This document shows positions 1 to 62,880 of a DNA stretch of 64,000 nucleotides, piece after piece (position 1 is the first letter of the stretch; each line of letters begins with the position of its first letter). A model generated the notes under the pieces. The model was not told the origin of the DNA and did no database searches. It saw only the letters and a program-made list of their open reading frames with translations. The stretch spans positions 24,490,001 through 24,554,000 of the forward strand of contig OX485804.1 in NCBI GenBank assembly GCA_950295325.1, given 5' to 3'. The position numbers were made by a program, and so were the translations under genes. The stretch comes from Polytrichum commune (Eukaryota; Streptophyta; Polytrichopsida; Polytrichales; Polytrichaceae).

Positions 1-350
1 CCATTTTGGTCGAGCAAGTCATCGTACCCAATCTACTCTTGTTGGCCTATGCTAAACTTTTGGGAAACAATTTCCTTAGATATTGGAGGAGAAATTGTTG
101 TGGTGCCCATGTACTCTATACTCTATCTTGTCCATACTTTTTGGGTTGTTGAAAAAGCTTAAGTTAGGGTCCTTCAAAAAGAAAGAAAAGGATGTTAATA
201 TTTTAAAATTGTCATGCGATGTGCATTCACCATCCCCTATCCATGTCAGTGTGGGCCTGTGTTTTTTTTAAAGGGGTGATTGTACAAGTGGTCCACACAA
301 ATAACTATGACATTCTTGATGTTTTGCAAACAGTTGTTCCAAAAACGCAA

Positions 351-396
351 CTTTGAAAGGCCAATGACCATGACATCTTTGGTTGGTGTTCAAAGT
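351..396 (+). repeat. Dispersed short repeat, copy 1
   Basis: About 46 bp beginning CTTTGAAAGGCCAATGACC and ending GGTTGGTGTTCAAAGT. It recurs with few changes at 2493-2539, and its first half recurs at 2642-2671, all on the plus strand. The spacing is irregular, so this is not a tandem array. It is probably a fragment of a decayed transposon present in several pieces. Confidence 0.6.
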
Positions 397-2492
397 GATG
401 GTAAAGTTGTTCAAACACATCACGTTTGTCGCTACGAACAATGCTATTATGCTAAGCTATTTAAGAAGGCACTTAAGGGGTAATAGTCAATGTTCCTAAT
501 TATAAGGGCCCACTTGATGGTCAAAGTGAGATTGTCAACATAACACAAAAGTTGTATGAAGCTTAATTAGTGACAACTTGAACTATAAGTTAGGTGTTTT
601 GGAAGAAAATTAAATGGATAGATGGGCACATGTGTTTAAAATAAGGCCCTTTATGTTCCATGCCCAAACTATAGAGAGGCTCCAGGTGTTAGGTTTCCAC
701 TGTTGATATTAATGAGTGTCGTAATTTTAAAATGGGTAATTGTCATATAGGTAAGGAGGTTTTGACTCCCATCATGCTGAAGGGGTAAAACTAGACAAAA
801 TGCGACACCATAGGATGACCTACTTGGGACCTAGGCTGATCAAAAAGTTGGGTAATGTGTTATGATATTCACACCATAAATCCTTCTATATGATGTTTTA
901 AAAATTGAATATAAAAAAAATAAAAATAAATTCGTAGTGATTAGATTAGCTACAAATGCAGGAGGGAGCTTGGTGTGAAATTGCCCCCTATTACGCAAGA
1001 TTGGGCTCCAATGCCCCCAAAGATTAATGGAACGTTGGGGAAGTTGGGTTTCTAGTTTGGCCAAATAGCATTGCGGGCAAGAAATTGGCCAAGGATTTTC
1101 AATTTATGGTGGACAATAATAAGTCTACCAAATAGAGTCCAATGGGCCAAGGTAAAAGAATTTTTGGCTTTTACAAATGGCTAACTTTGAGGAGTTTGGT
1201 TTCAAAATTGGTCCATCTTTTATTGGTTAAAGATGTTTGTTTTCTATTTCGATCCAAGATGATCATTTTGTAAGGTTAAAACCCTTGTTTCTGATTTGAG
1301 TTGACAATGAGCTTTTCTAACTAGTACAAGAGGGGCCAACCTTAAAACCAAGCTCTTCAAGGTTAAGCACATCTGAAGACCAAAAGTTTTCTACCTTGGT
1401 CCCACAAGCCCCTGTTTCAAAACCGGTGTTCAAACGTGTGTGGAGGCCTCTCCTTCATTCAATGACGCACCGTTCGGGTGAGGGGTTGGCCACCCAAGCC
1501 AACATTTCCTAGCATTTATTGGGCACCCCAAAATGACCTCTTGACCACGGGACTAGGGCTTACCCTTGTTAAACATGGCCTCCGATAACTTTTGCATCTC
1601 AAAGAAATGATGCATCTCACACAAGGACTCAAATGGCAATAATCTTCATTCACAATTGGATAGGGCAAATTTCAATCCAATCCAACAACTACAATCGTCC
1701 GGGGAGTTGGAAGTAAAGGGGAGTTGTGAGCAAAGTGACCAGAATCTGTGGTTGTTTGCATTTACATTTCCAACAACCTAGAGAGTGTGTCAAGGACATT
1801 GTAAGGGGCATAGGTGATGCTATTTAAAAGTGAGAATTATACTCTGAATTTTGTAATATCAACTTCCTTAATGTCGTTCCTTCTCTTATATCCTGAAACC
1901 CTAGGAATAAAAGTTCTCGGTTTACATTTCACTCTTTGTTGTCACATTTTCCTCCCATGTATCATGGGTTTGACATTACAATATACCACTAAAGAAATCA
2001 AACTACACTCTCACATGCATCAGGTTGTCATCATTGTAATTCGTAACATTATTGTAATGTTGACTTTGCGTTATTCCATAATGTCACATGCTGTACTAAT
2101 CCTTTATTATCATGCATCCATGTTAGCACTACAAAACTGCTTGATATCATATGCACTTTGGTTACCACGAGCGTGATATTACAGAGTTTAGAGTGTACAA
2201 CGTTTAATTCTCTTTTTTATCACCTAGTATAAAAAAGGTAAAGAAAATCCCTGTCACGTTACAAGTCTACTTGTGGTGGTCCTGGGCTACATGTTTGAGA
2301 ATTTTTTCTTCAAAAATTGGAATGGAAGTTGTTGTTATGATACCACATACCATTATACTCCTTACGCCATCTTTGACAAACATTTCGGGTTGTTCCAAAA
2401 GCACTGGTCTTTAATTGGTCCACACAATTGAAAGGCCAGCGATCATAAAAGCAGTTTTCTTCTTCCAATAAGTTAGTTTCCAAAACCACGCT

Positions 2493-41739: not shown

Positions 41740-42040
41740 TTATGGAGGGTCTAAGTTTTGGAGGAGCGGTTGGTGGTTTTCAATTCTCCTCTTATGGAGG
41801 AGGATGGACATGGCATATTGTATTGCAATGGTATTAATATTTTTAAAGGTATTTTTGATGGTAACCATGGGTATTTTGAGATTTTCTTCTAGTATTTTCA
41901 TAGATGGGATGTGGGCCGTAGCTTGGGCCCCAGCTTTGATGACAATAAGTGGTTCGATTTTCCATCCTCTGGAAGCGATACTATCAATCAATGGTTTGTA
42001 TTTGTTGTTTTTTGCTTCTATTGCTTCTGGGGAGAATCTG
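41740..42040 (-). pseudogene. Retrotransposon C-terminal tail domain
   Basis: The frame continues the RNase H polyprotein after a frameshift near 42,010-42,040. It reads LIDSIASRGWKIEPLIVIKA, followed by TAHIPSM and a basic HKRRIEN near the end, stopping at about 41,740. A tail of this pattern (KY-x-PL, GW, a G/A-rich turn, IH or AHIPS, then a KR-x-x-EN motif) is familiar from large RNase-H-bearing LINE proteins. Its role is unknown. Confidence 0.6.
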
Positions 42041-43730
42041 TCGTTACAATATGTGAATTCAATAAATTGTATGGTGAGGTTAGGGTCAATGTCAATGGGA
42101 GGGTCATTTTATATGGTAATCCTTTAACGCAGAGTATATCAGGTCGAAATCTTGCGTTGCAATGACATCTTTGTGTGTTACATGTGCAGGGGAGTAGCCA
42201 ATTGGGGACTGTATTTTCTTGGGGATTATTATTGAAGGTACCGGCATTCATGAGAGTAAAACATCGGGATTTTTCGGACGAGATTAGGAGCTTCCTAATT
42301 TCTCCAACTGCTATGTTATGTCTTTTAATTCGTAGTGAGTGTATATGTTGTTGGTTACATTTCAGTAGTACATGTAGCCAAGTGTCTGGATCATTTGAAT
42401 TGCATATAGGGCACGTGATAGAGGGGTACCTCTGGTGACCGAAGAACATTTGTTTTCTAGCATTACCCATGTATGTTCCTATGCGGAATTTAATAAGGCA
42501 TGATTTTTGTTTGTCTGTGATTAAGGAATTTGTCCAGAATTCGTTGGACAGTTCTTTGTCAATGTCTATATTTTCTGTCCATTTACATGTGTTGGGGGTT
42601 TGTGTGGCCACGATTGCTATATTGGTTTTCCTATCATATTTTTTAATTTGTTTTTCTAAGAATCTTACTGGGCCTTTGTCTGGGACGTCTGCCATCGAGG
42701 CCCAGACGTCCTTTTGATAATAGTACGGGGTGGCGTGGGCATGTTCGTATGGGTGGATGGCAATTCTGTGTTCTAATTCTAACCCGTATTTTGCTAGTTT
42801 ATCCGCTTTTTCATTACCGTCAATATTGACGTGTGCTCTGACTTTGTATAGTGTGATTGGCTGTATACGGTCTTGAAGGATTTTTACCATGGAGTTGAGT
42901 GTGGTTTGGTCTGGGTGACTATTATGGAGAGTGGGGTGTTTAATTTGTGTGTTGAGTAGGTATAATACGTTTAGACTGTCTGTGAATATAAATGCGGGTT
43001 CATTAGGGAATTGTGTATTGATGATTCTTAGTGTTTTGTGTATAGCCATCATTTCTGCACGTAGTATGTTTTGATGCCCATGGAGTCTTTTGGCGATATT
43101 TAAGCCTTTGGGGCTATAGATACCGTATCCAGCTCTTTCTCTTCTCCATACCCCAGGGGCAATTTCTTTGGATTTTATAAAGGATCCGTCCGTGTAGTAG
43201 CTAAATTGGGGGTGGAATTTTAGCGGTAAGTTAGTTTGGTAGTTTGGAAGTTGTGGGGTGGGGATATTATTGTATAGGGGTGTGTTTGGGTAGTTTGATT
43301 TAGCCCATTTTTTACTAGGGTTAACGGTGATGTTCGGAGGGGTGGGTGGTGCAATTTGAGTGTGGCTTTGTAGTATTTGAAGGTTATTTGCTATGTCATT
43401 TATTAACTTCATTTGTTCGTAGGTACCTATGTTATTATTTTGGTGATGGATACATAATATTTGCATGGTAGATGGTTCTTTCCTTGTGATATTGAGCTCG
43501 GGGGGTATTGTTGGTTCTTCATATGTGATTGTGTCAGCGGCAAAATGAGCAATGACATGTGTGTCTGGGAATGGGCCTGTGTGTGGGTTCGAGTTTTGGT
43601 ACCAATCAGTGTCTGGGGATATAATTATAGTGATTGTGTAAGGGTCATTTTGGGCCGCCATGCGTGCCCAGTGAATGGCTTGTTGTAGGTCTGTTGAGTT
43701 GTGAGGATGTGCGTATCTGATTCCTTGTCA
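42018..43730 (-). pseudogene. Linker domain end, RNase H and zinc-binding motif of the retrotransposon
   Basis: Open from an in-frame TGA at 43728-43730 to a stop at 42018. Counting from the ATG at 43661, the RNase H core spans about residues 153-295: YYTDGS (Asp158), RAEMMAI (Glu203), FTDSLNV (Asp228), and VRAHVNIDGNEKADKLA (His277, Asp287). All catalytic acidic residues are present. A zinc-binding C-x2-C-x9-H-x4-C follows at Cys417, Cys420, His430 and Cys435. RNase H removes RNA from the RNA-DNA hybrid during target-primed reverse transcription. Upstream (before residue 60) is the conserved end of an unfamiliar domain with ISPDTDWYQN. The frame breaks near the C terminus. Confidence 0.85.
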
Positions 43731-44712: not shown

Positions 44713-46532
44713 TTAGATAAGTTTAGAAGGAGTGGAGTGGTAGATTTTGAATTCGTCCTTGTTCATTAGAGTGGTACCATTAGGCATGGTAATTTGGTCT
44801 AGTGTGGTTATATTATGTATAAGTAGTTTGTGTAGTAGTTTAAGTGAGGTGTTGGGGTTTAGGTCATGTAGCATTTGTGCTTCTTGCATCCATGCAGTTT
44901 CAAGTGAGGATGGGATTAGTAGAAAGTTATTTATTGTGCTTTTTAGATGGACTCCGGCTTTATGTTTGAGCAAGAACAATGTTCTAGTGATGGGTGATCT
45001 AACACAGTAGTGGTATTTAATGCGAGTGATTTCTTGAGAGCCCCCATATGTGGCGAGTATGAATTGTAATAGACCAGTATATATTTTTCCAATTCTCCCT
45101 TTGTCATTGAGGGCATTTTGTAGTTGTTTTCCAATGCATCTTAGATAGGCATTTTGTAGTGAGAAAGCTTCAATTCCAAATAGGTTGTGTGGGAGTTGTG
45201 TAGCGATGTTAGATGTGCATTTGGGTATCCCGCAAATCGTTTTGTGAAGTGCTATGATTTTTTTATCTAGTTTTTTGATAGCTGGTATGGAGTAAGGTAC
45301 TGCGTAGAAGCTGTATGTTATTCCAGCGCGTATGACTGTATCTGCCATGTTTATTTTTTGTTTCATAGTAGCTGGGCATGTTGCAAGGGCTTGACATTGT
45401 TTGATGACTTTAGCTGTAGTAGTATTTATTTGTGTTTTCCATTTGAGTAATGCTGCAAGGTTTATTCCTATATACGTGTATGGTTCATGTTGGTTTAAGA
45501 TTGGTATAGGTTGATTCCTGTAGTTTATATTGGTGGATTGGATTAAGGCTTTAAAGGTTGTGGGGTGAAGTTTGGATTTGTTTGGGCAGCTAGTTATCGC
45601 ACACTTGGGTATTCCAAGGTCCATTCCTGCCCATTCGCAGAATTTGTCTAGTTTGTTGAGTTGTGTTTGCAATGTCTCTAGTTTATTGGCGATTGCTGCA
45701 AGATCATCTGCATATGCTGCTGATGAGATTTTTACTTTAGATGTGTCAAAAGTGTATCCATTATTTCCTTGTTGTAGCCATCTGAGGAGGGGTTCTAGGA
45801 ATATGATAAATAGATATGGGCTAAGGGTATCACCTTGTATTGTACCTCTTTGAATAGGGATTGGTGAGGTTTTTCCGAAGTGGTCGCCAGTGAATATTAT
45901 TGAGGATTGTGAGTATATATTTCCTATGAGGTTTATGAAATCAGTGGGATATCCCAGATCTTTCATTATGGCTAAAAGTCTGGTGTGATCAATGGAGCCA
46001 AATGCGTTTTTGAAGTCAATGTAGAGGATATATATATCTTGGTTCGTGAGTCTTGCGTCTTCAAGCGCTCCGATGAGTAGTTGGATTTGTCTGGAAGTGT
46101 TTCTCTCTGCTATGAAGCCTTCTTGACTGTCATGTAATATTTGGTATTTTTCGCCATATGTTGATAGAATAGAGGTTAGTATACTCGTGTAGAATTTATA
46201 TATGGTGTTAGGTAGCGCAATAGGTCTGTGGTTTGCTAGTTGTGATGGGTTTTCTTTTTTGTATAGTAATACTGTTAGACTGGTTTTCCATGATGCGGGA
46301 ATTTGTTTTTGTTTGTAACAGTGTTTAAAGAATAGGAAGAGTAATTTATGGAAGCATGAGGCATATTTTTTAGAATTGAATTAGGTATTTTGTCTGGGCC
46401 TGGGGCTTTGTTATTACTTAGGTTTTTAAGACAAAAGTCGTATGTTTCTTGGTCAAAATACGTGTGTAGAGGGGTGTGGGGTTCTCCTCGCTTGTCAATT
46501 ATGTATCCGTCTAGGTCATGCCATGGATATTG
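44713..46532 (-). pseudogene. Reverse transcriptase of the non-LTR retrotransposon
   Basis: Classic LINE reverse transcriptase blocks appear in order on the minus strand: NNKAPGPDKIPN (about 46,410-46,380), HRPIALPN, GFIAERNTSRQIQLL, YIDFKNAFGSIDH (palm motif A), QRGTIQGDTLSPYLF, then AYADDLA (motif C, Tyr-Ala-Asp-Asp at about 45,714-45,703). A frameshift near 46,350-46,380 separates the fingers from the palm, and the frame ends in a TAA at 44713 with the same frame open beyond it. The upstream end joins the endonuclease frame across a single in-frame TGA at 46533. The catalytic residues are intact, so the damage is recent or some of it is sequencing error. Confidence 0.88.
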
Positions 46533-48209
46533 TCAGAGTCCACAAGTGCAGTGTAGTGGGTATGTATTTTGGTATTGGCATGTGGGGACTGTAGGACGGT
46601 TACTGATGGATTGTTGTATGTAAATTGCTGATGCGATGTCTTCTGGGTTGGTTAGTATATTGTTTTGACTATCAATGATGGAGTCCAGGGGTGAGGTTTC
46701 AGTGTTTTTGAAGACTTTCCGATTTATTTTTTGGGGGCTTCTTTCGTACATTTGTCTGTATTTTGATACGGCTTTTAGAATCCAGTCTTTGGTATATTTT
46801 GTGGTGATTTTTCTGGCTTCTTTATTTGCTGTTTTTGCTATGATTGCTATGGTATTAATCCATTCAGTAGGAGGTGCCGTTGTGATAGGTGGGTGTGGGA
46901 TGTTTGTGTGTTGGTGGTTTCGTATATCGTTTAGGATGGGGTGTGCTTGCCAGAGTGGGTCGTGTTGTGCAATGTATATGGTTTTTCTTATTAGGTGGTA
47001 TGTGTTGAGGTGTCTTTTCCATTCTCTGGTCAGTTTTCGTGGCAGAAAACCACCTTGTTGTGATGTTCTGCTCGTAAGGCTTGGTAACGGGTCTGTTTTA
47101 CATGTTTTTTCAATTGTTTTTTCAATTGTGTTTAAAATATGGTCAAATGTTGTACAAGCTTCTATCCATTGATCCGGGCTTAAGTGTTGATGGTTTTCTA
47201 GTAATGTGGTAAGGGTTTTTATTTGGACAGAGTTTTCTTCGAAGAATGTTATGTTGAATTTTTCGATATTTTCTGGTGGTATTGGGTTTAGTATTCTAGT
47301 TGGTGACGTGTTTGTGGGGGGTGGGGATCTGGCTATAAGGGTGTTGTGGGGGATATGTAGTGCAACTGGATAATGGTCTGAGTTTAGATTCATATTTGTA
47401 TTTGTGGTGGAGATGAATTTGCTGTTGTCTGGTGAGTGGATGTAGAATCCATTTATTAGACTTGTTGATGTGTAATTATAGCCTCTTTGTCTGGAGATGC
47501 GAGTGTTAGTTGGGATATATTCTAGGTTGAGTGATGCAGTAAAAAATTTCCATTGGTAGTCTTCTTCTTGTGGGGGGTTGTTAATGTTGTTATTTTGCCT
47601 GCCCCTAAGTGCAATATCTCGGTTAAAGTCGCCACATAATGTGTATATGTGATTGGGGTTTATAGTGATTTGATTAGTGATTTCGTTCTTAAGGTGTGGG
47701 ATGAGGTGTATGTCTTCTAAATGTGTAGGCATATACATATGTATGATTAGCCAATGTATTAGTGAATGATTGTTTATTTTAATTATTTGTAGATATGGGG
47801 AGATATTTGCTGGTGTGGGAATTTTGGTAATATTCCCAGGGAATGCATATTTCTTGTGGATAAGTGTGAGTAGGCCTCCTCTTCCGGGTGTATAGGGCAT
47901 CCTTTGTTGTATGCATCTTGTGAGTGCATGTGTGTTGTTGAAAATGAATTTAAATTCTGGAAATAGATTTTGTATGTATTTTGTAGATTTGTTTGCAGTT
48001 AGTTTGGTTTCTTGGATATGTATGATTGCTGTGTTGTTTAGCGGATTGTTTGTTAGGCTTTGTAGGTTTGGCAGTGAAGTGTTGAGTGATGATGCATTCC
48101 ATGTTATTATGTTTGTTTTGTGTACAGTGTCTGTGTTGATTCTTATTGTTGGTGCGGGAGTAGCTGGGGTGGGGGTGGGTGCGAGTATTCGTTTATGCTT
48201 TCTAGGCAT
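46533..48209 (-). pseudogene. APE-type endonuclease of the non-LTR retrotransposon
   Basis: An open frame of 558 codons. The N-terminal 290 residues carry the AP-endonuclease-like nuclease: IITWNASSLN at 34-43, HIQETKL with Glu67, LCGDFNRD with Asp194 and Asn196, and NSDHYPVALHI with His279. These are the metal and catalytic positions expected of an active enzyme that nicks target DNA to prime reverse transcription. The remainder is the linker to the reverse transcriptase. The ATG at 48209 lies inside the last 67 nt of the preceding 2A-containing ORF, in the -1 frame relative to it. Expression could be by reinitiation or -1 frameshifting, or the overlap may be an indel in this copy. Confidence 0.88.
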
Positions 48210-48856
48210 CGAAGTGCTTCAGTGATCAATTGATTTGGGAGGAAGGTAAATTTGTTTTGAAGGGTGATGGGTGTGGGTGTAGTATCTTGGTTGTGAATGA
48301 ATTCATATATTTTTGTGTGTATTGAATTTTTTGGGAGTATTATATCTTGATTGTTTCCTACAAATGTTGTGTAGGGGTGAGGTGTCAATATGTGCCTTTC
48401 GGGGGGGTTGATGAGGTTAGCTAGTCTAATAATTAATGTGTTGGTCCATATGTCGTTAAAGTGGTAATTTTGGGGTTGGGCTAGTATGCTATTGCATGTG
48501 CCTGTTGAGGGGTGGATGGTGATGACTATAGCATATAACATATGGGTTAGTGGTGATTGCCTTTGTGTTTGGATGTATTGATGTAGATGTGGGTGGGTAT
48601 TTATTGCTTGATAGTGTAGTGGGTGTGTATTTTTTAGTATGGGAGCAAATGTATTTGCTATGTGTTGGTATTCAGGTTGTAGTTTTATAGTGTTTGGGAT
48701 GAAGTATATGTTGGCTCTCTTTTTGTGTGTAGCAGGATGTGTATGTAGGATGTTAGGCATTGGTCCGGGGTTGGATTCTATGTCCCCGCATTTTAGTAAT
48801 TCTAGCTTGGTAATGAAGTAGTATCCGTGGAAGTGGATTATTTTTGGATTTTCCAT
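48143..48856 (-). CDS. 2A-motif ORF at the head of the retrotransposon polyprotein
   Basis: The ORF is 237 codons from the ATG at 48856 to TAA at 48143. Residues 23-32 read CGDIESNPGP, preceded by KLELLK. This satisfies the 2A consensus (D-V/I-E-x-N-P-G-P with an upstream helical leucine stretch), where the ribosome skips the bond between Gly31 and Pro32 and releases a short leader. N-terminal 2A motifs are known in some non-LTR retrotransposons, for example trypanosomatid L1Tc. The remaining 205 residues are rich in H, T, P, N and I and I recognise no domain. The frame is also open upstream of this ATG to the LTR junction, and before that LTR inserted it was continuous with the low-complexity frame beyond it. 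Confidence 0.8.
   Translation of the reverse strand: MENPKIIHFHGYYFITKLELLKCGDIESNPGPMPNILHTHPATHKKRANIYFIPNTIKLQPEYQHIANTFAPILKNTHPLHYQAINTHPHLHQYIQTQRQSPLTHMLYAIVITIHPSTGTCNSILAQPQNYHFNDIWTNTLIIRLANLINPPERHILTPHPYTTFVGNNQDIILPKNSIHTKIYEFIHNQDTTPTPITLQNKFTFLPNQLITEALRCLESINEYSHPPPPQLLPHQQ
48761..48790 (-). other. 2A ribosome-skipping site
   Basis: Minus-strand codons for CGDIESNPGP. Every invariant 2A position is present: Asp, Glu, Asn, Pro, Gly and the final Pro (codon 48763-48761). A chance match to all of these in a frame that leads into endonuclease and reverse transcriptase is very unlikely. Function in this organism is inferred from the motif. Confidence 0.85.
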
Positions 48857-48940
48857 GTTTGTTTTTAGATATATTGTGATTGTGAATTTGGTTGTGGTAA
48901 AGAGGTTAGGTATAGCGGGTATGGTGTTTTCTATTTGTAT

Positions 48941-48945
48941 GGGTG
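48941..48945 (+). repeat. Target-site duplication, left copy (GGGTG)
   Basis: Identical to 50558-50562 on the other side of the left solo LTR. Confidence 0.85.
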
Positions 48946-50557
48946 TGTGAGCCCAAAATGGTGCCCACATGTGGTGATTAACTCTTCGAAACCAATTTTA
49001 GTTTGACTTTGATGTGTTATGATTATTCACAAAACATAAAAAGAATGAAGTGTGGTTTGGATTTAAGTTTAGGCTTTAGAATGTGTTGTGTGATTATTTT
49101 AAGGTTGAATTCAATAAGAGTATGCCTTGATATTGTGAGTAGGGGGTAAGGTGAAGCAAGGTGAGCTCCGCGGGTTAAATGCCCACTTTTGAATCCACCT
49201 TGGTAGTTTAGGAAGAAGGAAGCTTGGTGGAAGGGGATTAGTCCCTACTTTGAAGGTGAAGGTTAAGGGATTGTGATTGGAGGTGCTAATCCTCCCACCC
49301 TATCTTCTCCCTCTCTCCCTCTCTCCCTCTCTCCCTCTTTGCTACTTAAGGTGTTCTTTCTCTCATTTGCGACTCTCTCCATCAAGTGCTCTCAAGGGAG
49401 CAAGCTCTTAAGAGCTTGAGCTACGTGTGTGGGTGATTAGTGTAGTGAAGACAATTAGTTAAGCTCTCTCTCTAAATGCCTCCCAAGTGAGTGCACTTTT
49501 AGAGCTTGGGATTACCTAGGAAGATTAGATGGTTGTTAGTGAAGTGAGTATGGTAGGTTAGTTCCTTAGTTAAGGAGAGAAGAAAGAAAGAAAAGAGGAA
49601 AAAAAAAAAGGAAGAAAGAAAAAGGAAGAAGTAGAAATTAGAAGATGTGTGGTTAGTAGATAAGGGTGTGTTAATGGTTATTTAGTGACATACTGCCTAA
49701 GCTTAGTAGTGAGATCAGTAGCTGCTGGAGGGCCAGCCGAAGGCTAATGGCGCAGACTGCTGGAAGGGGAGCCGAAGGCTAATGGCACATACTGCCTAAG
49801 CTTAGTAGTGAGATCAGTAGCTGCTGGAGGGCCAGCCGAAGGCTAATGGCACAGATTGCTGGAAGGGGAGCCGAAGGCTAATGGCACATACTGCCTAAGC
49901 TTAGTAGTGAGATCAGTAGCTGCTGGAGGGCCAACCGAAGGCTAATGGCACAGACTGCTGGAAGGGGAGCTGAAGGCTAATGGCACATCTGCTGGAAGGG
50001 CCCAGCCGAAGGCTAATGGCACAGACTGCTGAGGTGATTAGTGCAAACCATTAGGCTACCTAGGGGTTATCAAGGCTAGGCCCAATTAATGGGTGTTAGC
50101 ATATAAAAAACTAGATTACATTAGGCCATTTAGTGGTGGCTAAGTAGTTAGACCTATTAGACTAGTTGTGGCATGTGTGGGTTTGTATGAGTGTGTTGAT
50201 CCGTGAAGAAAAGTGTTTTTCAACACTTGAATCTCTTGGTCAAATAACGCACTTGCATTATTAATGGAGAATGTGGGAGATCCTTGCAATGACAAGGAAA
50301 AGGGAGTGAAGATTAAACGAGCGAGGGGAATGTCCTTAAGGGCATGTGTGGCTAAATCCGCGGGTTGGACTCTTGAGAAGGCCAACTCTAGCATCAGCCA
50401 AGAGGCCAACATTAATAAAGTACAATGAGTAAGACAATACGTGTTCATTCGAACATGAAAAATTCCTTGCATATGGTTCAATGTTGTAATAGATAATGTG
50501 ATTCTCAAAGTCATCACCCGGACTAGGACGCTTAAGGGTGGTGGATTTGGCCTCACA
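48946..50557 (+). mobile_element. Solo LTR 1 (1,612 bp) inserted in the LINE
   Basis: Starts TGTGAGCCCAAAATGG and ends GGATTTGGCCTCACA, giving TG...CA termini and a short terminal palindrome TGTGAG/CTCACA. It is flanked by the 5-bp direct repeat GGGTG. No internal domain, primer-binding site or second LTR is present, so it is best read as a solo LTR left by recombination. It shares both ends and most of its flanking sequence with the inverted copy at 52949-54694. It contains a (TCTCCC)n stretch near 49,305-49,337, a purine-rich run near 49,580-49,630 and a tandem array at about 49,690-50,035. Confidence 0.85.
49690..50035 (+). repeat. Tandem array in solo LTR 1, 99-bp period with half-unit substructure
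   Basis: The 99-bp unit starts ACTGCCTAAGCTTAGTAGTG (49692, 49791, 49890) and contains two related sub-units built on GCCGAAGGCTAATGGCACA, one preceded by CTGCTGGAGGGCCA and the other by CTGCTGGAAGGGGA. There are about 3.5 copies. The array occupies the same place in this LTR that an unrelated array occupies in the other LTR. Confidence 0.9.
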
Positions 50558-50562
50558 GGGTG
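50558..50562 (+). repeat. Target-site duplication, right copy (GGGTG)
   Basis: Identical to 48941-48945. Confidence 0.85.
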
Positions 50563-52948
50563 AGAAGTGTGGTTTTGTATTATTTATAGGTTTTTGGCTT
50601 GTTATTGAGTTAGGTTTCCAATTATTTATGAAGTGGTATTTGTTATTATTTGTGTGGCGAGGCCGGTAGGCCGAGGCCATTGTGTTTTTTGGGTGGGGTT
50701 GGTATTTTGTATGAGGGCTTAATAGGTTTTTGATTTTGTGATGGTGTTCGAAGTTAGGGTAGGGTTTATTTTTGGAGCATTTGTTTTGTAGGTATGCTTT
50801 GGTGTTTGTTGAGAGGTGAGGTTGGTAGGTTGAGGTTGCTTTGTTTTTTGGGTTGAGTTTTTGTTTAGTGTGCAAATTTAGTTTTGAGTAGGGGTGGTTT
50901 CTGGGGAATGGTTTGTGGTTTTGGTGGGTGTTATATTTGGTTAAGAGGTGTGTATGGGAGTTGTCTTGGAGTACGTGTTTTGTAGTTGTGCGTGGTTTCC
51001 ATTTGGTTGTGATAGGGTTTGGCTTGTGGTGGAGATGGTAGGACAAGGTCATTTTGTAATTGTGATATGATTTGTATTTCAAGTGGAGGTTGGATTTGGA
51101 GCTAGGGTATGGTGTGCTTTTTGAGCGTAGGTTGGGATGTTTTTTAGATAGTGGGTGAGGTTCTAGGTTAGGTTGGGTTTCTTGTTTTGAGTGGGTATTA
51201 TGCTTTGGGCGTTGTTGTGGATGCACTTTGTTTTTAAGGTAAAGTCTAAGTTTTGAGCGGATTCTATATTTCGGATGAAGTTTATTCTTTGGATGAGAGT
51301 TGTGTCTTGGATGGAGTCTATGTTTTGGATGTGATATGTATTTTGAGTGAGGTTGGGGGTGTTTGTGGGTTGGATGGGTATTGTAGTGTAGTATGGATGT
51401 GATTTCTTCAAGTTGTTTGGGTAAGAGGTGTGTGTTGTAGATTGTTATTACTTTTGGTTTCTCTTCGTTTGTAGATTGGTATTTATAACTTTTATGGCGT
51501 GGCCGGTGGGCTAAAGCCTTTTTGTGTTTGGGTGCAATTTTGTGCTTATTGTGGGGATGGAGTTGTTTTTTGAGGTAAAGATTTGGGTTAATGTTTTGGT
51601 GTGATTTGAATGTTTGATATTTGTTTTTATTGGTTTTTTGGGGTGGAATGAGTATGGGTATGGATTTTATGTGTCCTGAGAGTGTGTGTTGTGCGTAAGT
51701 GTGATTTTTATTTGTTTTGTTAGGTATCCATTTGCTTGTGGATTGGTGTTGAGTATAATTTTTGTTGATTGTTTTTTGTTTTGTTTTGTGTTAGGTTAGG
51801 TTTGTTATACGTTTGGTTGTATTTATGATGGTAGGGTGGGGTAGGGATTGTGTTATATTTTTTGGTTGTTTAGATGTAGGTGGAGGGTATGTGTTGGCTA
51901 TAGGGGTGTACTTTGAGAGAAGTCCATGATGGGTATTTGATGTAGTGTTTCTTGGATTTCTCTTTCTTGATTTTTGGTGCTTGTTTTGTGTATATTTTAT
52001 ATTCGTTGTACTTGAGGTAGAGAGGTGATATCCATGTAGGTTAGTTGTTTTTGATTCTTGGTATTTAATGAGTGCGAGTTTTGTTGTAAAGGAGGTGTGT
52101 TTTAGGCTGGGTAGAATGATTTCTTGTCGTATAGGTAAGGGATGTGAGTTCACATAGTATTTAGGTATTTGCTTTGTTGTGCTTTTGGTTTGAGTTATGT
52201 TGGTAGGGTTTGGTAAAGTGTGTGTCATCTTCCTTAGTTGTCTAGATGTACGGGGGGGATATGGATTGATTATGGGAGTGTTCGTTGTTATTGTGTGAGG
52301 TTTTTGATGTGTGCTTGATGCATTTGATGTGGTGAAATGGTATTTATGTGGGTTAAGTATCTTTGGTTTTTTCTTTTTGATTTTTGTAATATTTTTAGTG
52401 TATGTTTTGTTGTAGGATGGGTGGTGGATGGGGTGGGTATTGTGTTTTTTATTTGTTTAGGTATGAGGTGTAATTTTGTATAGTTGTTTGTTGTTGATTT
52501 AGTTTTACAATAGTGTGTGAGGTTGTGTTTGTAATTAGTGTTAGGTTTATTTATGAAGTGGAATTTATTATTTGTGTGGCGAGGCCGGTAGGCCGAGGCC
52601 ATTGTATTTTTTGGGTGGGGTTGGTATTTTGGATGAGGGTTTGATAGGTGTTTGAGTTTGTGATGGTGTTTGGAGTTAGGGTGGGGTTTATTTTCGGAGT
52701 AATTGAGTATTGGGTGTGTATATTGTTTCGTTTGAATTTTGTCTTTGTGTATGTGTAAAGTAGAGTGATTGTATTTATATTTCATATGGTATTTTGGTCG
52801 TCGTAGGGTCTTATGACTAGTATGATGGTATCTTTTATTAAGTACGGACTTTGTTGTAGGTGTGTATATGATGCTTGGGTGTGGTCGGGCTTTGGTCTTA
52901 TTTATTCTTTGGTTATTTATGAGTATGTATTTGGTTATAGTGAAAGGG
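50563..52948 (-). other. A/C-rich low-complexity region with long open frames and internal repeats
   Basis: The minus strand is strongly A/C-rich and the plus strand G/T-rich, as in the adjoining retrotransposon ORFs. Minus-strand open frames (51226-50563 and on into the LTR, 51411-51163, 52228-51791, and 52948-52288) encode basic, His/Lys/Asn/Thr/Pro-rich low-complexity sequence with no domain. A block containing GTGTGGCGAGGCCGGTAGGC occurs at about 50,659 and 52,575 and, more diverged, near 51,498. Around it some 160 bp are well conserved, so the region is a degenerate direct-repeat array. Open frames may only reflect the scarcity of stop codons in A/C-rich sequence. Confidence 0.65.
52944..52948 (+). 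repeat. Target-site duplication, left copy (AAGGG)
   Basis: Identical to 54695-54699 on the other side of the right solo LTR. Confidence 0.85.
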
Positions 52949-55098: not shown

Positions 55099-56904
55099 CT
55101 AAGATAGTATTGAAGTAAATACTTTTGTTTTACCGGCGGTTTGTGGCCAATCCACATTTGGCAGGTCTTTTATCATAAGATTTGGGTTTACCAACCCGGT
55201 AATTTGTTGCATCCCGGTAAGTGCCATGGTTAGTGTGCTTTGTATGTCCAACATTTGCTTCTTCAATTTTTCGTTGATGTCATCAACATAGTTGTGGGCC
55301 TCTTTGACTATGTCATCCTTCAAGACCTTCATCTCTTCGTGTAGTTCAAGCTTGAGTTTCTTGTTACCTTCTTCAATGGCCTCCTTCATGATGGTAAAAA
55401 CTTCGCTTTTGGTGGCATTCTTCTCACCTTGGTTTTGGTTTTGGATTGCTTCAATGGTGTTCACCAAGCAAGTGTTAGTATCTTCAAATCCAAACTTGAT
55501 CAACAAATCTTTGGAAGGTTTGTCAATACCATCAAGACTTCTACAGTGTGGAGTGATTTCCACATGATAAACACCAATTTTTCCTCTTTTCCTACAAACT
55601 TTTTGTATACAAAGGGGTTGAGGCATTCAACATTTGCACTACCATTGTGTCTAATTCCATCTTGCTTATGGAACCAAATGGAGACAACATTCTTGGTTCC
55701 AATTATCTTGCAAATTTCAAGAGATGTGTCATCTATGCTCATCAAGATGGGAAGGTTGTAGAAGGTGAGAGTTAGAGCTTCTTTCCTTTGTTTTTGTTCC
55801 AAGGTGAGAAAATGCCCTTTCTTCACTTGTCCTTCCAAAATTTCATGGTGTGTTGCAACTTGGAGTTCTTGAATTTTCTTGGCTTGTGCGGGGGTTGGTG
55901 CAACAATGTAAGCATGGTTGTTGGAAGTGCCCTTTTGCACCTCCACAATCTCAAATTCATAACCTCTTCTAAAACTATTCTCTAAAACATCTTTGAAGAG
56001 CATATGTGAAAAGACATCAATCAAAGTTTCACTAGTGATTTTGATTGAAAGGTTGTTGTTCCTAGCTATGGAGTGGTAAGTCTTACATACCTTTTCAAGA
56101 GTACCTTGGGTTGATTTGGGGTCCAATTGTAGAATGAATGGACTAAGTCCTTTCAACAAAGCCACACCATCAATTTCGGGGTGGAGAAGGTGGAGTTTGG
56201 CAATTCCCGCCCAAACTCCTTTCTCCCCACCTCTCTTAACACTCATGCACATGATAAATATGGGCTCAATAAGGTTAGTGCCAAGTGGTATTTGCATCAA
56301 CTCAAGTCTTTTCCTTACTAGTTCTTTCACATGGTTATGGAGGAGAGGGGTGTTGGGTAAATGAAATTCAATAGCAACATGGAAGTCCAAAGAGAGACAT
56401 GTATTGGGATCGATTGGGATATCATATGGAATTTGTGTTAGGTTGAGGTGTTGTCCAAGGACACCATCTTCTCTCTTACCTGGGTAATAGATTTGGGGTA
56501 TCCTTGGGAAGGATATTGCGACCCCCCTCCATTTATTCCGCTTCCTTCCTTGGTACACCCCTAAGTACCCTATCTTCGATGGATTCACCATCGAAGAGCT
56601 CTTCCAACCCCTCTTCCATAGCCAATTTCTCCATGTTAGTGAAACCATACCAAAAATTTTGACGGAACCTTCGTTCCGGGAAGATAGAATTTACCTGTGT
56701 GGCTTGTGGGCGTCGTTGTGGGGTTTGGTGTAGAGATTTGTTCGGTTTTGTCTTCTCCCGGGTCCTCTTGGTGCCTATTTCCTTCGCAGCTTGATTCTCC
56801 TTTGCCTTCTCCGCTAAGAGCCGCATGAGGTTTTGTGTGGGTGTGTCTACCTCCATGTTGTCATCATCTCCCAAGATTGGTCGGAATGTGGACGGTGATG
56901 CCAT
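55099..56904 (-). pseudogene. ORF1-like protein of the retrotransposon, frameshifted
   Basis: Three minus-strand frames follow one another: 56904-56533 (from ATG, MASPSTFRPILGDDDNMEVD), about 56,545-55,585, and about 55,585-55,099. Switches near 56,530-56,545 (at a C run) and 55,580 (at an A run) look like single-base indels, so the ancestral protein was about 600 residues. The N terminus is acidic then strongly basic (TKRTREKTKPNK). The middle has two segments with alternating hydrophobic pattern that could be RRM-like, as in other LINE ORF1 proteins. The end has a charged helical, probably coiled-coil stretch around EGNKKLKLELHEEMKVLKDD. ORF1 proteins usually bind the element RNA. No named domain is certain. 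Confidence 0.6.
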
Positions 56905-58760
56905 GTTTTGCAGCACCGTATCCCAGCACCTCAAAACTCTTGGTCGGTTTGCTAGGCAGTGATAATCAAGCTTTGGAGGTGCTCCTCAGCAGCTCCACTC
57001 CTCCAAGCTCTCGAGTAGCTCCCTAGCAACCACAGGTACACAGCTTCGCAGGCCCTGCAGCTACACTTCGCTCTGCTTAATTCTTCACGGCTGCTGCTCT
57101 GGTGTTGCCCAATTTTTCGCAGCTTCCTCACCCTTTTTCGCAGTGGTTCTGTAGCTGATATAGTGCCGAGTAATTCTCCTACTTTGTCTGTCAACTACTC
57201 AGCTCGCAGCTCTCGCTTGGTTTTTCGCTGCCGTGTTGTGTATGCAAACCTTCTGAGTTCCGGCAGCAAGTCTCCTCCTGTCTTCTCAGAATTCAGCTTC
57301 GCAATGAGTCTGAGCTTCTCTCTGTCTGCGGTGGAGTTAGGCCACCTTCTTCTCAGGGACTTTTACCAGCCGCTTACGTTGCCTCCTCCTACACCGAGGT
57401 GAGAAGTGCGAGGTTGTGGGAGGACAGTGGCTCTCCCTTACCACAACTCCTAGTCTGTAGATTGGCCGTGCTGATAGCAGGGTGTGTCACTCTTGGGGCT
57501 GCTCAATCTGGGTGATCTATTCTAATCCAAATTATTTGCTTTTGGGACTAATCAACCAATGTAATCTATCCTAATCCAATATTTGTGCACTCCCTTAATA
57601 CACGAAGGATTCTGATTTCAAAAAATCAAAGAGGGTAGCGATCTCTCGTTGCAATGTCTAATCTCTATGGTAATTTAGTCAACAATTTCTAGTAGCATTA
57701 GTATCAGTATTACCCTCTACCATAGGCAGCAACCAGGTCAATAATGCCGCTCAGTCAGATCTGTGCAAAGGAGGCTTTAGTTGGTCTTATGTTGCGGGAT
57801 CTGTGACTTCTGTAGTATGTGCGTCGGCGGTGGGAGCAGGTTTGATTTCGCAGCTTTCGGCGTTGAATGTGTTGGTTATCTTCACGGGGGATTTCGGAGA
57901 CAGTCTTCGGTAGCGACAGATCTGCAGTGTATCTGCAGTGGGGGCAGATTTGATATCGCAGCATTCGCGTTGACAGTGTTGCTGGTCTTCACGGGGTAGT
58001 TTGGAGATGGTCTTTGGCAGCGACAGATTTGCGGTATGTGTGTCTGCAGTGGGAGAGATTAGATTTCGCAGCTTTCGGCGTTACCGGTGTTGCTTATCTT
58101 CGCAGGGGATTTTGGAGACGGTCTTCAGTATTTGCTGCAGCTCCGAATTTCGGTGCTCTTAACGGGTGGCAGCTTCTTCGCCTTCAGCCAGGACGAAGTT
58201 CTTCGAAGATCTTCAGTTACCATTGGCTTGTATCAGCGTGGATTTGTGGTAGCAGGGGGTGGATTCGTGGTAGCAGCGTCTTGATCTCAGGGTCAGTCTC
58301 GCCGAAGGTTGTTCGCCAAGTTTGCCAGAGTTCGGGGATCCCACCTTCCGTTGGTTCAGTAACATGAGTAGATTTGTGGCAGGTAGCAACTTTGTTGCAG
58401 CACAGTCTCCTTCACAGATTTTCTTTTCGGTGTTGCAACGTCACGCATCTTGTGATCTGTTGGTGAGGCTTCGGTGGAAGAGGTGGTAGTCTTGGTGAGA
58501 TCTAGGCTTTTATGCTGGGATGGTGGAGGTTGGGCTTCGTTAAGACGGCCTTCCGGTGTCTGAGGAGATGGGTGGCTGGGGAGAACGGCTAGAGGAGCAA
58601 CTGATTTAGCCGCTTCTACTCTTTGTCATTTCCCCTACCTCCGGCAGCCTCCTCGATCTACCAGGGCTTCGCCTCCGAAGCGTCGAACTCCTCACTCCAT
58701 CCCTCTCCACTGAACAACGATTGCCTAGGACTTACATGTTTGTAGTGTGTGGGAAGGTGT
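56905..58760. other. GC-richer interval upstream of ORF1 with a minisatellite
   Basis: Base composition is clearly higher in GC than the surroundings. The part next to 56,904 may be the 5' untranslated region and promoter of the minus-strand retrotransposon. Open frames lie on both strands but none shows a family signature. The tandem repeat at 57,787-58,140 is listed separately. Confidence 0.45.
57787..58140 (+). repeat. Three-unit minisatellite, period about 115-120 bp
   Basis: Three diverged units share TTTCGCAGCTTTCGGCGTT (or a variant), GTGTTGCTGGTCTTCACGGG and GCGACAGATTTGCAGT-type blocks in the same order. Units differ by substitutions and short indels, so they have diverged since duplication. 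Confidence 0.75.
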
Positions 58761-61984: not shown

Positions 61985-62880
61985 TAAAAACATAGGTAAT
62001 TCCTTGGCCTAGCCAATCACTACCGCCACTTCATTCAAGATTTTTCTAAGGTTGCTAGGAAGTTGTCGGACATGTTCGAAAAGTGGCTATCCCAAGAATG
62101 GGATGACCCTTGTCACCAAGCCTTTGGGGAGCTAAAAAACAAGTTGATTTTGCCATGTGTGCTCAAGTTCTCGGAGTTTGATAATTCTTTTGAGGTGCAT
62201 ACAGAGGCAAAGGACTTTGCCATTGGCATAGTGTTGATGCACGATGGATGGCCCATTGCATACGAGAACAAGAAGCTCCATGGTTGTCAAAGGAGATGGT
62301 CAATTCATGAGAAATATTTCTTTGCCGTAATGCATTGCTTGAAGATGTGATGACATTATTTGGGGTTGCACAAAGCCAAGGTCTACACGAACAATGTGTC
62401 GTTGAAGTATTTTGGGACACAAACGCAAGTGAGCGCCAAACCATTGCAATGGCATATTACCTTGGCTCTTATGAATGTGGATTTGATCCACAAACCAAGC
62501 CGTGACAATATGGTGTTGTACATCCTAAGTGGACATAAGGAGTTCCAAACAATGAGCACAATCCAAAACCTTGTGGCTAATCTACAATGGTAAATGAAAC
62601 TTGTAACGCAAGATAAGGGATGAGTACATCAACAACTCCAAAGCACAAAGGCTTCTAGGTGAGTTTCGCAAGGGCAAGGCGTTTAAAGATGTCAAGTTGG
62701 TGGACATATTGCTCAAGTGTAAGCAAAGTCGAGTGTATGTGCCATAAGGCCAATAAAATATATTGGTCTCGAAGGAAGAATATGATAGTTCCATTGCCGG
62801 CCATATAGGAGAAAAAACCACCATAGAATGATGTCAAGGAGGTACCATTGGTCGTGCATGAAGGAGTATATAACCCACTT
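61985..62880 (+). pseudogene. Decayed Ty3/Gypsy pol fragment (reverse transcriptase end, RNase H, integrase zinc region)
   Basis: Frame 62063-62350 reads through CHQAFGELKNKL, FEVHTEAKDFAIG, the RNase H pattern HDGWPIAYENKKL and a YTVHEKE-like IHEKYFFAVMHCL. A TGA then breaks the frame and the match continues with RHYLGLHKAKVYTNN, LQWHITLALMNVDLIHKPSRDN and, after further stops, VYVP and AGHIGEKT, which fits the H2C2 zinc-binding start of Ty3/Gypsy integrase. The first catalytic Asp of RNase H (usually TDAS) is replaced (TEAK). Many stops and indels make it a dead fragment, without LTRs that I can identify. Confidence 0.75.

Follow-up and report, generated by a model that had tools for sequence, protein, structure and literature searches.

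The window, a stretch of 64,000 nt (G000:C2:24490001-24554000 of a 408-Mb genome), carries on its minus strand a copy of a very long LINE that spans ~13.8 kb when an insertion in its leader is left out of the count (Table 1). The sequence CGDIESNPGP, a 2A/StopGo octapeptide with the preceding CG, lies where the original prediction placed it, and the two features described ahead of it are also present: an ATG at 48856, 24 codons before the D of the core, and a leucine-containing segment, which reads KLELLKCG. The prediction further held that one ORF leads from the motif to the APE endonuclease, reverse transcriptase (RT) and RNase H. RT and RNase H do lie on the same strand, but the frames of the window copy are broken, since the frame holding the 2A ends at 48143 and APE, RT and RNase H are found in other frames. 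The window copy is a dead member of its LINE family. Beyond the insertion, its leader can be followed from 50558 as far as the ORF2 start at 55157. Its ORF1 has lost the stop codon that once overlapped the start of ORF2, while the relative L129 retains ATGTGGATTGA, its ORF1 ending at that TGA. Elsewhere in the window, an ORF at 62000-62350 on the plus strand, with the sequence FLGLANHYRHFIQDFSKVA, was recognised by eye as resembling a fragment of an LTR-retrotransposon polymerase.

Table 1. Features of the element in the window, by window position
Feature	Positions	Strand	Basis or remark
RNase H frame, also with a CPIC zinc-finger-like motif	42018..43727	-	Pfam RNase_H, E 3.4e-13; motif positions
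Reverse transcriptase frame	44713..46380	-	Pfam RVT_1, E 4.2e-31
Frame with APE endonuclease region, NIITWNASS at 48113-48087	46533..48218	-	No match in a Pfam search of this frame in the window copy
2A-to-APE region, ~210 residues without a known domain, common to families A, B and C	48114..48760	-	Crosses a frameshift in the window copy; structure model of relative L063 of low confidence
Open frame holding the 2A, stopping before the endonuclease	48143..48997	-	ORF list
2A/StopGo octapeptide and preceding CG, CGDIESNPGP	48761..48790	-	Core 48784-48761; sequence; 273 core sites in the genome, 0 for the reversed pattern
2A leader under constraint: the core and ~50 codons ahead of it (start of the constraint approximate)	48761..48934	-	Third-position excess to ~-150 nt; dN/dS 0.27, then 0.13, then 0.11 at the core
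Originally proposed start ATG	48854..48856	-	M in 14/35 family-A copies
1,612-bp insertion splitting the leader; solo-LTR-like, TG..CA ends, CACCC repeated	48946..50557	.	Alignment to relative L069
ORF2 leader beyond the insertion, MASAYRPRH at 50680-50654	50558..51790	-	98% identity to L069 over 1,105 bp
ORF1 relic belonging to this element, MASPSTFRPILG at 56904	55099..56985	-	94.5% identity to the L129 ORF1 region over 2,135 bp
ORF2 start MWIGHKPPV, former ORF1/ORF2 overlap	55131..55157	-	ORF1 stop lost in the window copy

The host genome has the marks of a land plant. Contig C8 carries rbcL followed by accD, a plastid arrangement, and along its entire length the rbcL product resembles form I Rubisco chains, the top match being 9chz, which we take to be a hornwort enzyme. 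LEAFY, which marks the land-plant lineage, has domains in G000 and none in 14 control genomes.

Copies of the motif and the selection acting on it

Sites encoding the motif are numerous in this genome. A degenerate 2A core was found at 273 sites in 408 Mb and the reversed pattern at none; over the whole genome, a relaxed core with G11 was found at 425 sites (control, 0), the K14 version of the core at 17 and the H16 version at 13 (control, 0 for both). A chance origin of the motif is ruled out by the comparisons of 273 with 0 and 425 with 0. Contamination is likewise ruled out, as copies lie on seven contigs of 42-78 Mb.

Copies of three related families, designated A, B and C, were recognised, with B and C recovered both through the motif and through the region after it. 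A query of 237 residues around the motif gave identities of 61-100% among the 150 scored of 782 candidates, and in searches with the downstream region 150 of 720 candidates and 150 of 749 candidates were scored, the latter with 147 matches. The post-2A region is common to the three families; among 17 sequences of it, identity measured against the first is 28-86%. In the better-kept copies ORF2 follows ORF1 and has this order: a variable leader rich in Asn, Thr, His and Pro, the 2A, a region of ~210 residues, APE, RT and RNase H. All three enzymatic regions lie within a single ORF in L063, the ORF2 of which matches RVT_1 (2e-29), RNase_H (5e-13) and, below the curated cut-off, Exo_endo_phos (9e-4); the Exo_endo_phos match is similarly weak and under the cut-off in L067. 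The ORF2 frame is open across the 2A in L063, L064, L065, L135/L104 and L129/L072; open frames of 2625, 2663 and 2924 codons occur among the copies, and ORF1 frames, where seen, measure between ~490 codons (truncated by the end of the locus) and 1,257. Structure models were poor for the region after the 2A in L063 (mean pLDDT 52) and had a mean pLDDT of 41 for the segment between RT and RNase H. In a phmmer search against PDB chains, the best matches were R2 proteins (E 3e-30), and at E 0.01 no chain named as L1 was returned from this set, which may hold none.

Much of the leader is only ~5% G, and against this background we noted a G/C-rich string of 19 nt, TCGGCCTACCGGCCTCGCC, at window positions 50656-50674 and 52578-52596 (minus strand). 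It occurs exactly in 25 of the 88 fetched loci; its frame sometimes differs, and a copy often has two of them.

To describe variation in the motif we tabulated 75 sampled copies (35 from family A, 20 each from B and C). The family A copies were matches to a query including the 2A that aligned across it, and five matches that did not align there were left out; of these, L059 and L061 have a canonical motif with a frameshift just downstream, in L058 and L060 the motif is altered and does not share the frame of the downstream region, and L062 has unrelated DNA upstream. Copies of B and C were chosen by the downstream region alone, with long open frames favoured. In one locus, L105, the frame of the motif differs from that of the downstream region.

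The canonical D(V/I)ExNPGP is present in 43 of the 75 copies, which, like the window copy, conform to the StopGo core (D/G/C/N)(V/I)ExNPGP; another 13 have H14 or H16, 11 have K14 or Q14, and 8 are otherwise changed. Most positions are nearly fixed: G11 in 72, D12 in 74, I or V at position 13 in all 75, P17 and G18 in 72 each, and P19 in 74. The exceptions are position 14 (E 52, H 11, K 7, Q 5) and, to a lesser extent, position 16 (N 71, H 4). Thus the claim that all invariant 2A positions are present is correct for the window copy, but E14 and, less often, N16 vary among other copies. The sequence ahead of the core is also kept, with L8 in 66 copies and C, S or G at position 10 in 69, and this leucine-rich context ending in G11 agrees with the description of StopGo flanks in the available text of PMC12846837. 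Long open frames are found in some of the copies that have an altered motif. Those of the K14 subfamily extend over 2663 (C1:51775411), 2924 (C4:34919556), 1249 (C3:41257862), 1881 (C5:46487703) and 2107 codons (C6:27637367), and L053 has P17L despite a frame of 2327 codons.

The conservation is of the protein rather than the DNA, in that wobble positions vary while core residues are kept: two to four synonymous codons are used at positions 11-13 and 16-19, with four for each of P17 and G18. We estimated dN/dS in family A from 9 representatives (36 pairs) of the 21 copies with the MASAYRPRH start motif. The ratio is 0.11 in the core, 0.13 in the last ten leader codons and 0.27 before those, compared to 0.78 and 1.02 in the two blocks that make up the first 60 alignment columns from MASAYRPRH. 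Similarly, the excess of changes at third positions among 32 copies (pairs >45% different within a 30-nt window being dropped) is absent at -180 to -150 nt (ratio 1.00), ranges from 1.30 to 2.15 across -150 to 0 nt, and rises to 5.12 in the window that opens with the core. When we asked whether the D, E, N, P, G and P codons drift neutrally, we found D, N, P and G kept in most copies, while E varies groupwise (to H, Q or K). The original proposal of a 2A/StopGo-type sequence in a land-plant non-LTR retrotransposon is supported, and across many copies of this LINE superfamily the motif is under purifying selection.

Tandem motifs and the start of ORF2

One family bears several 2A motifs in frame, up to four in a copy. 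Among the 94 matches listed on C1, there are 14 same-strand neighbour pairs within 1.5 kb, and the spacing is divisible by 3 in 13 of them (binomial P 6e-6) or, counting distinct spacings only, in 11 of 12 (P 5e-5); these P values are nominal because the copies are related and the spacings are not independent trials. In L134/L126, GDIQLNPGP, GDIELNPGP and GDIHPNPGP share one open frame, and in L018 four motifs (GDIQLNPGP, RDIELNPGP, GDIYTNPGP and GDIHPNPGP) lie in one frame with no stop over 500 codons. The order of the variants is recurrent: in the 12 clusters among the matches listed on C1, Q14 comes first in nine and H14 last in nine. In L123 and L126, moreover, a leader of the family C type is joined at the 2A to a different type of downstream region.

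The start of ORF2 is seen at seven loci (L129, L064, L067, L068, L132, L133 and L136), in which its ATG overlaps a stop codon as ATGACTAG, ATGAATAG, ATGGATAG or ATGTGGATTGA. In six of the seven, an ORF1 frame terminates at the overlapped stop after 492 to 1,257 open codons; L067 has just 27 open codons ahead of it, its ORF1 frame being decayed. This arrangement suggests coupled termination and reinitiation. Starts by termination-reinitiation in other LINEs resemble the overlap seen here. In three subfamilies no stop interrupts ORF2 between its ATG and the first 2A, a distance of 165-166 codons in L135/L104 (where a second motif follows after 319 codons from the ATG), 551-552 in L064 and 888-889 in L129/L072. 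The frame is broken between the two points in L067, L068, L133/L103 and L136, and an ORF2-frame ATG at the overlap is absent in L063 and L066. Over its first ~60 residues ORF2 shows moderate hydrophobicity at six of the seven loci (best 19-residue mean 1.1 to 2.0), L129 having 0.26.

The long open leaders consist of A/C-rich, low-complexity sequence, which makes open frames easier to maintain, and their third-position excess is weak; the other two frames nevertheless hold many stops, and the L072 leader has ~500 open codons compared to at most 249 in 500 Markov simulations. An alternative is that translation starts internally, at a conserved ATGG(C/G)CTCGGCCTACCGG mostly 86-95 codons before the core, so that the released leader would be ~100 residues and the A/C-rich sequence above it a spacer. 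Of the 20 family A copies with ~1.7 kb of upstream sequence, 18 have the ATG of M(A/G)S(A/V)Y(R/Q)P (16 at 86-95 codons and 2 at 134 codons before the core; L079 and L080 are without it), and the sequence above it is poorly conserved among subfamilies and has only a weak third-position excess. However, the conservation is at the nucleotide level, and L013 and L058 carry the same 19-nt string in a different frame while several copies contain it twice, so that MASAYRPRH is doubtful as a conserved peptide start; moreover, ORF2 is open from the ORF1 overlap through the 2A in three subfamilies. We consider such an internal start unlikely.

Proposed role of the motif and comparison with known systems

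We propose, with a probability of roughly 77%, that StopGo sets the APE-RT-RNase H enzyme free from the leader of ORF2, building on what can be read directly from the copies: their number, the continuity of the frame, purifying selection and the in-frame spacing of tandem motifs. The better-kept copies would express ORF1 and then ORF2, from the ATG that overlaps the ORF1 stop, with ORF2 translation probably starting by termination-reinitiation. The leucine-rich stretch and GD(I/V)(E/H)xNPG would, in the exit tunnel, keep the last Gly-Pro bond from forming, so that the leader would be released and translation would resume at the final proline to yield a separate enzyme protein. The presumed benefit is an enzyme freed from its leader, which in six of seven loci begins with a moderately hydrophobic part. 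In the family with tandem motifs, an ORF2 with two to four in-frame 2As would yield three to five proteins. A more elaborate, tentative version, which we regard as possible but not probable, is a multi-2A polyprotein in which up to four StopGo sites differing at position 14, usually with Q in the first and H in the last, give graded skipping, so that leader, middle and enzyme proteins would be made in fixed proportions, with the 2A also serving as a seam for recombination between the leader and enzyme modules of different families.

The viral 2A/StopGo sequences (FMDV F2A and relatives) described in the available text of PMC12846837 include a class whose leucine-rich upstream segment closes with (A/S/C)G just ahead of D12, and H14 or H16 in natural viral sequences is reported there to leave ~90% activity or more. 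The plant motif shares with these the core D(V/I)ExNPGP, the flank and the H14 and H16 variants, but differs in its land-plant host, its LINE context and in K14 and Q14, which are absent from the variants flagged in that text. K14 and Q14, the core changes in 8 of the 75 copies and P17L in L053 would argue against skipping. The octapeptide could instead be conserved for another reason, as a protease site or as a turn or contact in the ORF2 protein, with ribosomes reading through it, and the K14 and Q14 motifs in copies with long open frames, together with P17L in one such copy, would fit this explanation. We judge it improbable, as the residues that are kept and the leucine-rich flank with G11 are what StopGo requires, H14 and H16 are variants tolerated in viruses, and the motif is repeated in tandem in frame and lies between swapped modules in L123 and L126. 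Skipping at the motif stays our preferred reading of its conservation.

The original prediction had the motif at the N terminus, releasing a 31-residue leader that starts at ATG 48856, and this we dismiss as highly improbable: although the ATG exists, M is found at its site in only 14 of 35 family A copies (K in 17, T in 2, I in 1, a stop in 1) and in none of 39 family B and C copies is there an in-frame ATG at exactly the equivalent position (the nearest is 22 codons away, in L120), while constraint, including the third-position excess, reaches ~25 codons farther upstream, several copies have hundreds of open ORF2 codons ahead of this position, and the first 2A lies instead ~166, 552 and 889 codons into ORF2 in three subfamilies.

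Names for the clades of 2A-bearing LINEs reportedly come from Odon 2013, and L1Tc has its 2A at the N terminus of its APE-RT protein. This N-terminal placement in Ingi/L1Tc is not found in the plant element, which keeps a separate ORF1, has its first 2A 166-889 codons inside ORF2 (three cases) and in one family has tandem 2As; with a leader longer than 31 residues, it is therefore built differently from the trypanosomatid L1Tc. LINEs with a 2A-like motif are on record in the available text of PMC4981915, and the plant element is like them an APE-type LINE with an in-frame 2A-like motif. The same text describes sea-urchin NLR proteins with N-terminal 2A signal sequences, in which the 26-residue 2A is itself the signal (Roulston 2016, PMC4981915). 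There too, the 2A is in the first part of the protein and the start can be hydrophobic, so that in the plant element skipping could decide the destination of the downstream protein; here, however, a leader of hundreds of residues precedes the 2A and its hydrophobicity is moderate.

The plant LINEs listed in the available text of a 2022 review belong to the L1 and RTE superfamilies (PMC9033089), and the element described here, likewise a non-LTR retrotransposon with endonuclease and RT, differs in its PF00075 RNase H, in ORF2 frames of up to 2,900 codons and in R2 proteins as the best structure matches; it adds a LINE type outside that list. In the text available to us, a 2026 survey calls natural StopGo largely a viral feature, one very rare in the coding sequences of cells, and reports no evidence for its natural use by plant viruses (PMC12846837). 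We found no 2A retrotransposon of a plant in the open-licence literature, and surveys beyond it may contain plant cases.

A survey of eukaryotic 2A sequences has reportedly been made by Rao in 2025. If the motif works here as in viruses, it would represent a natural plant use of ribosome skipping. The motif is real and selected, in an element with an anatomy unlike that first predicted, and we infer its function from the sequence. A land-plant LINE superfamily with hundreds of sites provides a natural plant test bed for StopGo, with H14, Q14, K14 and H16 each shared by groups of copies and with tandem arrays, and it may supply plant-derived 2A sequences for multigene expression.

Several additional features were noted in relatives of the window copy. 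Between RT and RNase H, residues 1871-1964 of the L063 ORF2 match PF12237 (PCIF1_WW) above the cut-off (E 5e-8; L063:1742-3277, minus strand), as do residues 1849-1933 of the L067 ORF2 below the cut-off (E 7e-6). PCIF1 is the cap m6Am methyltransferase, which has an NPPF motif; NPPF was not seen in the segment matching PF12237, and AHPH or AHPK stands near the place. A search of the open-licence literature for a PCIF1_WW match in a LINE found nothing. Beside the triple-2A ORF of L134, positions 2-1595 (minus orientation) were recognised by eye as a Copia-like polyprotein fragment. Finally, residues 1683-1728 of the L067 ORF2 give a weak Pfam match to Chromo (E 0.12), and the YLCQW...W segment around this match is common to families A, B and C.
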